Part shown: one piece after another, positions 1 to 6,325 of the stretch
How the letters are laid out: every line of letters starts with the position of its first letter
Numbering within the stretch: the first letter of the stretch is position 1
Translations under genes and position numbers: made by a program
Notes under the pieces: model-generated
The model's input: only the letters and a program-made list of their open reading frames with translations
Database searches by the model: none
Told to the model about the DNA's origin: nothing
Origin: Bacteroidota bacterium
Lineage (GTDB): Bacteria; Bacteroidota; Bacteroidia; B-17B0; Aurantibacillaceae
DNA: 64,000 nt
Direction of reading: 5' to 3'
NCBI GenBank assembly: GCA_018267825.1
Contig: JAFDXR010000008.1
Location: forward strand, 186,001 to 250,000

Positions 1-468
1 GATACAGCGCTCACATTTGCCAAAAGCTGGAACGGCGCATTACAATGGATTGCACAAAGCCCTTACCGTAAATTCCATAAACGCAAGAATTGGTTTATCG
101 GCATTCATACGATACACAAACAAGAGGAATCGTCGTGGAATGAGAAGGACATCCGTTTTAAAACCTGCCGCTCATCCGGACCCGGAGGTCAGCATGTCAA
201 TAAAACAGAAACCGCTGTTCATGCCACACACATACCCTCAGGGATTTACGTACTCGCAAGCGATTCACGTTCGCAGGCACTTAACAAACAAACAGCTATA
301 GAGCGTCTCCAAACCAAGGTGCGTCAATGGCAACAGGAACAACATTATAAACTGGGTCATACCGATCCCTGGGAAAATCATCACTCACTGGTGCGTGGTA
401 ATCCACAGCGAACGTATAAAGGCCCTCAATTCAAACTATATTCTTATGGAACAGAATTTATTGCATAA
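1..468 (+). CDS. prfH: Peptide chain release factor homologue PrfH (5' end outside window)
   Basis: The first 155 visible codons, open from base 1 to a TAA at 466-468, carry the class I release-factor catalytic loop: the GGQ tripeptide sits at residues 62-64 of the fragment, inside SGPGGQHVNKTETAV. The C-terminal tail (WQQEQHYKLGHTDPWENH) is short and lacks the extended tail of RF1/RF2, as in the PrfH branch. PrfH homologues are encoded beside the RNA ligase RtcB and are known to release peptides from ribosomes whose 16S decoding centre has been cut, so that RtcB can reseal the rRNA. RtcB would be expected just left of this window, which I cannot see. The gene overlaps the next one by 23 bases, so the two are probably co-translated. 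Confidence 0.9.
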   Translation, partial: DTALTFAKSWNGALQWIAQSPYRKFHKRKNWFIGIHTIHKQEESSWNEKDIRFKTCRSSGPGGQHVNKTETAVHATHIPSGIYVLASDSRSQALNKQTAIERLQTKVRQWQQEQHYKLGHTDPWENHHSLVRGNPQRTYKGPQFKLYSYGTEFIA

Positions 469-2509
469 ACATATTGTAATTAAAAAACAGAAACTGGAAG
501 AAATCCGGCACACACTGAAAAATCAGTTCATCGGGCTTGATGCCGTCATTGACGAAGTGATGAGTTTTGTAAGTACCTGGTACCTCTTTCCGGAAGCGCA
601 ATTCCGGCCGACGGTGATTAACCTCTGGGGCATGACAGGCTCCGGAAAAACAGCACTGATCCAAAAACTCATTGAGTTACTCGACTACAAAAAACTCTAT
701 GCACAGATGGACATGGGTGAATTCGAATCAGACTCTGCTTCCTGGATTAAATCCACTTTCACAGGTGACCTCGAATTTTTCGACAACCAAGCCTGTGTTC
801 TCTGTCTCGATGAGTTTCAGTTTGCCCGTACGCTCGACAACAACGGCAATGAACTTGGCAAAGATAAACTGCGTGTAATCTGGGACCTGATCGACAGCGG
901 GAAAATCAACTACATCCCCGGAAGCAATTCCTATTACCTGCGCAGAGCCGAACTCTGCCTTAAAAATCTGCTTCGTGCAGAAGCCGGGCAGGTGGTTATA
1001 CGCCATGGTCAAGTTGTAGAGAATGCTGACCTTTTTCTTGAAATTTTTAAAGGGTTCTACTTCGACGATCAGTGGCGCTACAACGAAGCCATCAGTAAAG
1101 ACTATTTCCTCTCTAAAGATTTTATCGAGGGCATACATGATCTGTACAACGATGAGAACCTGAGTCGTGAAATACTGAAAGAAAAAATTCAAAGTTCAGG
1201 AATCCAGGATTTACTGATCCTCCTGGCCGAAGGCATTAAAACCCTGACCGGTGTCAAACAAATGAACCTGTCGAAAGCCCTCATCTTTATTCTCGGCAAC
1301 CTCGATGAAGCCTTCTACATGAGCGGAAGCCTGAACCCCGATATCAGTGCCGACGAGTTATACGAAGCGACTTCGCGCATCAATATTTCTCACATCAAAG
1401 CAGCGCTCAAAAAACGCTTCCGGCATGAACAGATTGCCCGCCTCGGGAATAACCACATCATTTACAAGTCCTTTACCAATGCACATTTCCGCGAACTGAT
1501 CCGCAGAGAACTGCAACGCGTAAGCGACTACATGCAAAATGAATTCGGGTTCACACTTCAATACCACAGCAGCATCCATGAGTTGGTGTATAACGAAGGT
1601 GTGTTTCCTACACAGGGAACCCGGCCGGTTCTGACAACAGTTAAAAACCTCATTGAAACCTGGCTTGGTAAACTGGCTGTAGAATGTATCGAAAAAGACA
1701 TGAAGGTATCTGCCGTTGACTGGAGCTACTGCGACGACAAATATGTGTTTGTGTTCAAAGACAGAAGCAACCAGGTACTGAACATCTATGAAGAACCTGT
1801 AAATCTGAAAATCGACAGCCTGCGCAAATCGGGTAATGAAAACATACAGGCACACACCGCAGTGCATGAGGCCGGGCATGCTATCCTGGCAGCACTCACT
1901 CTGCGGATTCTGCCGTCGGTTGTTCTCTCCAAAACCGCCGCCGACAATTGCGACGGATTCTGTCTGGTGAATTTTCCGGAAGACTTAACAACCCGCGAAG
2001 TCCTGAAAAAAGATATTGTGATCTCACTGGGTGGATACGTTGCTGAAAAAATGATCTTCGGGGCAGAAAATACATCATCAGGGGTATACAGCGACCTGGA
2101 GAATGCCAGCTCACTGGCCAATAAAGCCATCAAATACTACGGCATGGGAAGCGATCCGCTCCACATCGCAGTAAATGCAGCAAACAACAATGAATACTTT
2201 TTCAACAAGGCTCATCATCACGAAGAAGCACTCAACCTCATCCAATCGTGCGTGAAAACCGCTGAAGAAATATTAGATGCCAACAAACTGCTTTTACTCA
2301 AAATGTCGGAATACCTGAGTTGTCATAACCGTATGGAAGAGGCGCTGATCGGTCAGTTTATCAGGGAGTACAGCGTGGAAGCGTGGGTAAAAACAGAGGG
2401 ATTTATCCGGAAAGAAAACTATTTCTCATTTCACCAGGAGATAAAAAAACAGATTAACGAACTGGAACATCATCCTCACTCGTTGAGAAAACAAATTATG
2501 AAAATTTAA
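446..2509 (+). CDS. Soluble Hsp100-type AAA+ ATPase fused to an M41 metalloprotease
   Basis: 687 residues from the ATG at 446, which overlaps the prfH stop; an in-frame ATG at 395 lies deeper inside prfH and is less likely. The motor has Walker A GMTGSGKT (62-69), Walker B VLCLDEF (D122, E123), a sensor-1-like FILGNLDEAF (about 278-288), an arginine-rich KKRFRHEQIARLG (about 322-334) and a GTRP sensor-2-like motif (about 391). These resemble Clp/Hsp100 proteins rather than FtsH. The C-terminal half is an intact M41 peptidase: HEAGH at 474-478, LGGYVAEKMIFG near 530, and SGVYSDLENAS supplying the third zinc-ligand Asp. There is no transmembrane segment, unlike FtsH. It is probably an ATP-dependent cytosolic protease; its substrate is unknown. 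The link to PrfH suggests a role at damaged ribosomes. Confidence 0.85.
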   Translation: MEQNLLHKHIVIKKQKLEEIRHTLKNQFIGLDAVIDEVMSFVSTWYLFPEAQFRPTVINLWGMTGSGKTALIQKLIELLDYKKLYAQMDMGEFESDSASWIKSTFTGDLEFFDNQACVLCLDEFQFARTLDNNGNELGKDKLRVIWDLIDSGKINYIPGSNSYYLRRAELCLKNLLRAEAGQVVIRHGQVVENADLFLEIFKGFYFDDQWRYNEAISKDYFLSKDFIEGIHDLYNDENLSREILKEKIQSSGIQDLLILLAEGIKTLTGVKQMNLSKALIFILGNLDEAFYMSGSLNPDISADELYEATSRINISHIKAALKKRFRHEQIARLGNNHIIYKSFTNAHFRELIRRELQRVSDYMQNEFGFTLQYHSSIHELVYNEGVFPTQGTRPVLTTVKNLIETWLGKLAVECIEKDMKVSAVDWSYCDDKYVFVFKDRSNQVLNIYEEPVNLKIDSLRKSGNENIQAHTAVHEAGHAILAALTLRILPSVVLSKTAADNCDGFCLVNFPEDLTTREVLKKDIVISLGGYVAEKMIFGAENTSSGVYSDLENASSLANKAIKYYGMGSDPLHIAVNAANNNEYFFNKAHHHEEALNLIQSCVKTAEEILDANKLLLLKMSEYLSCHNRMEEALIGQFIREYSVEAWVKTEGFIRKENYFSFHQEIKKQINELEHHPHSLRKQIMKI

Positions 2510-5224: not shown

Positions 5225-6325
5225 ATGAAACGTATAAAAATTAATGCCTGGAAAAAAGGCCTCGTGTTCAAAAATGACTCCTATAAAAGAATCCTGGGCG
5301 AAGGTGCCCACTGGTTGATGCCGTTCGAATACCTGATGGAATGCGACATGGCAAAGCCTTTTATTTCGCCTGTAAACCTGAATATTCTGCTGAAAGATGA
5401 ACAATTTACAAACGAAACCATCATCGTAGATGTCAGGAACCATGAGATCGCCCTCCACTATGAAAATGGCCTCTTTACCGGTGTGCTCATTCCCGGAAGG
5501 CATGTCTTCTGGAAAGGCCTCATCGACTACAGCTTCAGGATCGTTGACCTGAACAGTATTGATATTGATATCGGCATTGATAAATCCCTGTTCTCAAAAC
5601 GTGAACTGGCGCTATATATCAGGTCATATACCATCGAAGCGCACGAGAAAGCCGTGATGTACGTCGACGGGAAATTCAACAAAATAGTTGATCCCGGCAC
5701 TTATCACTACTGGAAAAACGCAACCTCTATTGCTCTTTCAAGGGCGGATATGAGGAGCATGCAACTCGAAATCTCCGGACAGGAAATCCTGACCCGCGAT
5801 AAAGCAGCGCTGAGGGTTAACTTCTATGTACAGTACAGCATCCGGGATGTTGTGAAAGCCATTGTAAAAAACAAGGACTACGACAAACAACTCTATACCC
5901 TGATGCAGCTGGCCCTGCGTGAGTTTATCGGTGGCATGAGTCTGGATGAGCTCCTCGAAAAAAAAGAGCAGATATCGGAGCACATCAACCTGGCTGTAGC
6001 GGAAAAAGCAGAGGCCCTGGGAATTGGAATCAGTCATAGTGGCATCAGGGATATTATACTCCCCGGCGACATGAAAGAAATTATGAACCAGGTACTGGTA
6101 GCAGAAAAAAAAGCGCAGGCAAACACCATCATGCGCAGGGAAGAAACTGCCTCTACCAGAAGCCTGTTGAATACCGCTAAACTCATGGAGGATAATGCCA
6201 TGCTGTTTAAACTGAAAGAAATGGAATATGTGGAAAAGATTGCGGAAAAGATCAATACCATTTCTCTCTCAGGTGGCTCCCAGGTTGTAGACCAGCTGAA
6301 AGACATATTCAGTCCGCGCAAATAA
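5225..6325 (+). CDS. Slipin / SPFH (band-7) family protein
   Basis: 366 residues. The central part (about 140-290) is an SPFH domain (EISGQEILTRDKAALRVNF, then YTLMQLALREFIGGMSLDELL), followed by a charged, Ala/Glu-rich helical segment (AEKKAQANTIMRREE) expected to form a coiled coil. The N-terminus is unusual: a short motif of the form K-G-L-V-F...G.G.HW recurs three times (about 9-31, 73-98 and 139-164; each ends in GAHW, GRHVFW or GTYHYW). No transmembrane helix is visible, so membrane contact would be peripheral. Slipins are recurrent partners of RtcB RNA-repair operons, as I recall, which fits the nearby prfH. It lies between the tRNA array and tRNA-Gln. Confidence 0.85.
   Translation: MKRIKINAWKKGLVFKNDSYKRILGEGAHWLMPFEYLMECDMAKPFISPVNLNILLKDEQFTNETIIVDVRNHEIALHYENGLFTGVLIPGRHVFWKGLIDYSFRIVDLNSIDIDIGIDKSLFSKRELALYIRSYTIEAHEKAVMYVDGKFNKIVDPGTYHYWKNATSIALSRADMRSMQLEISGQEILTRDKAALRVNFYVQYSIRDVVKAIVKNKDYDKQLYTLMQLALREFIGGMSLDELLEKKEQISEHINLAVAEKAEALGIGISHSGIRDIILPGDMKEIMNQVLVAEKKAQANTIMRREETASTRSLLNTAKLMEDNAMLFKLKEMEYVEKIAEKINTISLSGGSQVVDQLKDIFSPRK

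Follow-up and report, generated by a model that had tools for sequence, protein, structure and literature searches.

A Clp-type AAA+ motor joined to an M41 zinc peptidase in the rtcB-prfH neighborhood of a Bacteroidota bacterium

M41 peptidases are known essentially as part of membrane-bound FtsH. The locus analyzed here, in a window of 64,000 nucleotides from the genome of a Bacteroidota bacterium (contig JAFDXR010000008.1), raises the question of what such a peptidase does behind a motor that resembles Clp, and with which cellular process the protein is associated. The ORF at 446-2509 on the forward strand is intact, running from an ATG at 446 to a TAA at 2507-2509 (687 aa), and places a single Clp/Hsp100 D2-type AAA+ module (aa ~8-440) and an M41 zinc peptidase (aa ~468-642) in one chain (table 1). 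A chance ORF or an assembly chimera was ruled out by many full-length homologs on unrelated contigs; 73 distinct full-length sequences were found, and the fusion thus constitutes a family.

Table 1. Positions of the features discussed, numbered from the first nucleotide of the window.
Feature	Coordinates	Strand	Basis
prfH (release factor H), 3' part; starts before the window at L096:9764	1..468	+	TIGR03072, 181.5 bits
CDS, predicted 687-aa Clp-type AAA+ / M41 zinc protease	446..2509	+	ORF, Pfam, family profile, AlphaFold2 model
Clp D2-type AAA+ module including D2-small domain (aa 8-440)	467..1765	+	profile against PDB, structure, alignment
Walker A GMTGSGKT (aa 62-69)	629..652	+	conservation in family sequences
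Pore-loop-1 region, shortened (aa 89-112), GYVG absent	710..781	+	alignment and 73 sequences
Walker B VLCLDE (D122, E123)	797..814	+	conservation in family sequences
Insertion of ~115 residues at the pore-loop-2 / pre-sensor-1 hairpin position (aa 155-272)	908..1261	+	alignment with own ClpA/C, ClpB, ClpX
Sensor 1 strand (N285)	1277..1306	+	alignment and 73 sequences
Arg-finger motif RFRHEQIARLG (R332)	1415..1447	+	alignment and 73 sequences
Sensor 2 QGTRP (R393)	1613..1627	+	alignment and 73 sequences
Peptidase M41 domain (aa 468-642)	1847..2371	+	Pfam, profile against PDB, structure
HEAGH zinc/catalytic motif (aa 474-478)	1865..1879	+	73/73 sequences
D550, position of the third zinc ligand of FtsH	2093..2095	+	73/73 sequences

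An intact HEAGH-containing M41 domain had been claimed in an earlier note on this DNA, and the claim was borne out. Pfam Peptidase_M41 matched aa 468-617 with 64.5 bits (cut-off 29.9), and the M41 part modelled alone (pLDDT 89.8) had a fold matching FtsH, AFG3L2 and YME1 (Z about 19-21.6). H474, E475, H478 and D550 were invariant across the 73 sequences, and by FtsH precedent D550 would be the third zinc ligand. Sequence model, fold, HEXXH motif and distal aspartate all place the domain in peptidase family M41. In a phylogenetic tree, 29 M41 domains of the family were split from those of 37 FtsH proteins, drawn mostly from Bacteroidota and Patescibacteria-type records, with support of 100/100. 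The earlier view that the protein is soluble was also upheld: a single 19-residue window exceeded a hydropathy of 1.6, located at the HEAGH helix, whereas the genome's own FtsH, used as control, has 19. An N-terminal substrate-recognition domain is likewise absent.

The ATPase part was ambiguous between AAA, AAA_2, Torsin and ClpB_D2-small in single-sequence searches, in which only the M41 part was secure. All Pfam matches to it were below threshold (Torsin PF06309 17.1 bits, with a cut-off of 27; AAA 16.6; ClpB_D2-small 15.6; AAA_2 15.2), so the check proposed with these models was positive for Peptidase_M41 only, and a family profile was needed for the motor. Among NCBIfam models, ClpV/ClpB/ClpK matched ~aa 274-440, and the FtsH model TIGR01241 was confined to aa 465-610, at 54.6 bits with a cut-off of 600. 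A search of all PDB sequences with a profile of 23 members aligned positions 9-125 and 312-440 to the D2 domains of ClpC, Hsp104, ClpE and ClpB (best ClpC, E 6e-17; Hsp104, 5e-15). FtsH chains began to match near position 442 (E 2e-26) and, among the matches listed, covered only 442-665 or later. Because the profile matches Clp D2 in the ATPase region and FtsH matches begin only behind it, the motor was assigned to the Clp D2 type, in agreement with the earlier note and against a closer relationship to the AAA module of FtsH.

Modelling was consistent with this assignment. In the AlphaFold2 model from the 23-member alignment (mean pLDDT 84.4), the AAA part (residues 1-450) superposed best on Skd3, ClpC, ClpA and ClpB D2 (Foldseek candidates re-aligned with VIA-align 2: Z 22-24, about 270-311 residues, rmsd 3-4). 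Over the whole chain, Foldseek ranked FtsH/YME1 first, with high rmsd, because both domains are present in those proteins. The motifs quoted in the earlier note proved to be true AAA+ elements on alignment with the genome's ClpB and ClpA/ClpC, namely FILGN as sensor 1, FRHEQIARLG as Arg finger and QGTRP as sensor 2. Their residues N285, R332 and R393 were invariant in the 73 sequences, as was D122 of Walker B; of the same sequences, 72 retain K68 (the other has a gap) and 71 retain E123. Profile, model and alignment together revealed large and small D2 AAA domains, a Clp-type Arg finger and a GxRP sensor 2, while an FtsH-type classical AAA module with an aromatic pore loop was found neither by the profile search against PDB nor by alignment. 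These features of sequence, predicted fold and conservation provide good support for reading the protein as a soluble AAA+ protease in which a Clp motor is combined with an M41 peptidase, and which probably acts as a hexamer and degrades proteins in an ATP-dependent manner within a single chain.

The protein thus shares with FtsH and YME1 an M41 peptidase behind an AAA+ motor, HEXXH plus distal Asp, and a fold match of Z about 20, but differs in its Clp D2-type motor, classical AAA in FtsH, in having neither membrane helices nor an FVGVGA-type pore loop, and in an M41 domain falling outside the 37 FtsH sampled. With the Clp/Hsp100 D2 motors (ClpB, ClpC, ClpA, Skd3) it has in common the AAA+ core, Arg-finger motif, sensor 2 and D2-small domain; however, it consists of one module with a covalent M41 peptidase, whereas Clp uses a separate ClpP. 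No model spanning both parts was found in Pfam, NCBIfam or PADLOC, and PHROGs matched the protein as two separate halves, which speaks against a known common family. A viral-protein structure library contained no clear full-length counterpart, and a literature search limited to open-licence papers yielded no mention of the fusion.

A further difference from Clp, beyond what the earlier note had recorded, lies in the pore. In alignments with the genome's own ClpA/ClpC-like protein, ClpB and ClpX, none of the family members sampled had the segment IGAPPGYVGYE of pore loop 1, and a GYVG-like motif before Walker B occurred in 0 of 73 sequences. The short pore-loop-2 hairpin of Clp is replaced in position by an insertion of ~115 residues, longer in some phages. 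The absence of the GYVG loop puts ordinary threading in question. Torsins, which have no protease domain and are located in the ER/nuclear envelope, differ from the present family, in which the GxRP sensor 2 is kept; weak Pfam Torsin matches were seen in 15 of 23 family members. Torsins are likewise Clp-related AAA+ proteins without the pore-loop consensus, and peptide threading by them is thought unlikely (PMC4999309). It is conceivable, as a speculation, that the pore-loop-2 insertion takes over gripping from the missing loop.

The main news of this analysis is the genomic context; the earlier note made no mention of an operon or of relatives in huge phages. Upstream of the gene lie rtcB (L096:8341-9744) and prfH (L096:9764-10468), which makes the AAA/M41 gene the third in the operon; it overlaps prfH by 23 bp, and the three genes are probably co-transcribed. 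Among nine close relatives (the window protein and L003-L010, 54–67% identity), eight had a neighboring rtcB and six a neighboring prfH, while in a seventh (L005) prfH is located elsewhere in the genome. Most gaps or overlaps between operon genes amounted to a few bases. RtcB and the AAA/M41 protein showed correlated pairwise identities (r 0.68, Mantel p 0.0002), and apart from rtcB and prfH the close relatives have few neighbor genes in common. This conserved neighborhood and co-inheritance suggest that the bacterial clade acts together with RtcB and PrfH.

Several other genes were observed around these loci. Upstream of the window, an eCIS-type cluster (L096:1-7747) precedes rtcB by a few hundred bases. 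It contains genes for a Pvc16_N protein, a WHH/colicin-DNase-type nuclease, and an eCIS_core protein that also weakly matches a non-specific endonuclease. A Band_7/HflK-like gene is found at 5225-6325 (+) of the window, with a close homolog at L008:1212-2309 near a second rtcB paralog. RlaP-type RNA-repair nucleotidyltransferases lie upstream of rtcB in L006 and L009, and one was also detected in a phage locus (L240:10505-12025). L007 is a 4-kb contig labelled Ignavibacteria, possibly mis-binned, whose AAA/M41 protein groups tightly with the Bacteroidota copies.

As in the RtcB-PrfH rescue and RNA repair operons described previously (PMC6514570, PMC9223846), rtcB and prfH are adjacent and co-directional; the third gene, however, is not among the accessories named in the main text of PMC6514570, which include TPR, Pol-beta NTase, ZnR and charged proteins. 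In a sample of 395 genomes of the phylum Bacteroidota, prfH was above cut-off in 28 and the AAA/M41 family intact in four, with one further broken copy and one truncated fragment; most Bacteroidota prfH loci are therefore without this protease. The gene after prfH was TPR-like in 24 of the 26 Bacteroidota prfH loci read (judged by eye from the start of the sequence), in agreement with the TPR accessory of PMC6514570, indicating that the third slot is filled by different genes in different lineages. In a six-frame match, the family copy at L176 (G359:C66) was found in two stretches, one of them with stop codons.

PrfH has been shown to split ribosomes cut by colicin E3, and RtcB2 to reseal them (PMC9223846), which makes the clearing of an aborted peptide or a stuck protein the most economical role for a protease encoded beside them. 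In the mechanism proposed here, the Clp D2-type module would assemble into a hexamer that delivers protein to the M41 peptidase of the same chain, and the gene would be co-expressed with rtcB and prfH. On a ribosome with cut RNA, PrfH would free the stalled peptide and split the ribosome, RtcB would reseal the rRNA, and the protease would then degrade the untagged fragment that had been freed, or else a protein trapped on the damaged ribosome. As there is no N-terminal substrate-recognition domain, specificity would have to be supplied by the inserted domain or by a partner, for example PrfH or RtcB. The link to ribosome rescue is inferred from context, and the nature of the substrate is a guess. 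Counted in favor of this reading were the profile, the superpositions, the invariant residues, the lack of a membrane helix, the rtcB adjacency, the co-inheritance, the scarcity of other shared neighbors, the PrfH/RtcB2 biochemistry, and the separate FtsH, ClpB, ClpX and second Clp ATPase encoded in the same genome. Counted against it were the missing GYVG loop, the basal and WYL-linked bacterial members and nearly all phage members, which lie away from rtcB and prfH, the lack of enrichment of release factor and Pth2 genes near phage copies (see below), and the many prfH loci without the protease. On balance, the reading of a soluble, self-contained AAA+ protease that has been drawn into the rescue and repair of ribosomes by PrfH and RtcB was given an even chance of being correct.

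In a rival interpretation, the protein is a conflict protease with a single dedicated target (a toxin, a phage protein or a cell-death switch), which it would cleave or unfold; the rtcB-prfH operon would then be one of several defence contexts into which the gene was brought. A WYL-domain regulator adjoined, or lay one gene away from, all five divergent Bacteroidota copies (L098, L099, L173, L174 and L175), with GmrSD beside one of these and a PDDEXK_4 nuclease near another, and defence systems are often accompanied by WYL regulators (PMC10924106). The many huge-phage relatives and the sporadic distribution fit this explanation, as do PADLOC matches to the defence ATPases DolB and IetA (28.3 and 20.7 bits), but these are weak and cover part of the AAA domain only, without M41, and PADLOC covers described systems only. 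In the rtcB-linked clade, moreover, no WYL neighbor was noticed and the tie to repair genes is stable. A conflict protease appears rather unlikely.

The most numerous relatives were found in huge phages, at 65 loci on IMG/VR contigs reaching 548 kb; phrog_2, the terminase large subunit, was matched on 18 of 32 viral contigs tested. Searches of INPHARED phages gave partial M41 matches only, with no annotated cultured phage carrying the whole protein, and those of plasmids gave FtsH-level M41 matches with none of full length. In a full-length tree (quick search, unrooted), the ten sequences of the rtcB-type clade formed one group that joined phage lineages L121 and L180/L181. The viral contigs, the phrog_2 matches and this grouping would suit a general-purpose phage protease, used in host takeover or virion assembly, which bacteria later captured for housekeeping unrelated to rtcB and prfH. 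However, the direction of transfer is not readable from an unrooted tree, and the tight, congruent rtcB linkage of the bacterial clade argues against such a history, which is considered improbable.

A general ribosome-rescue link in phages, suggested by eye from nearby Pth2, Thg1, RNA ligase, RlaP, RtcB and release-factor genes, was tried and rejected by a permutation test on whole-contig gene positions, with proximity set at 10 kb from the phage AAA/M41 gene. Neither RF-1 (1 of 8, expected 1.4) nor Pth2 (2 of 16, expected 1.9) was enriched within this distance, and the L196 protein taken for Pth2 by eye had no Pfam match. Thg1 was found there in 7 of 16 cases (expected 2.5), driven by one phage clade, outside which the count was 2 of 11 (expected 1.2). 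RtcB occurred on just 3 of the 44 phage contigs tested and lay within 10 kb in two of these (expected 0.4), too few for any conclusion. Individual loci include a Thg1 and RNA ligase pair near the AAA/M41 gene in both a Bacteroidota genome (L004:12344-14166) and a 349-kb phage contig (L196:771-3498), a release-factor gene with an RF-1 domain ~0.5 kb upstream on a short viral contig (L221:4014-4571), and RtcB ~4 kb downstream on a 347-kb phage contig (L224:10366-11643).

The rival view of an FtsH relative deprived of its membrane helices and with a merely diverged FtsH ATPase, already largely refuted, was rejected as highly improbable: the clearly FtsH-like M41 domain and the whole-chain Foldseek ranking favor it, but the profile ties the ATPase to Clp D2, the GxRP motif and D2-small domain are present, and the M41 tree sets the family apart.

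Recruitment to PrfH/RtcB rescue can also be embedded in a wider and tentative proposal, less likely than not, of an undescribed class of soluble single-chain AAA+ proteases that lacks the GYVG loop and grips via its pore-loop-2 domain, is passed back and forth between Bacteroidota and huge phages, and in Bacteroidota has come to serve as the proteolytic arm of RtcB-PrfH repair.

A soluble M41 peptidase with a Clp-type motor would represent a separate way of building an AAA+ protease from one chain. With its pore loop missing, it also offers a test of the need for aromatic pore loops in ATP-driven proteolysis. Its presence on many huge-phage contigs raises the question of how such phages use it. 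If the place of the gene behind prfH reflects its function, bacteria may couple the repair of toxin-cut ribosomes to the removal of aborted proteins, and such a proteolytic arm, if true, would be a bacterial counterpart of linking ribosome rescue with degradation.
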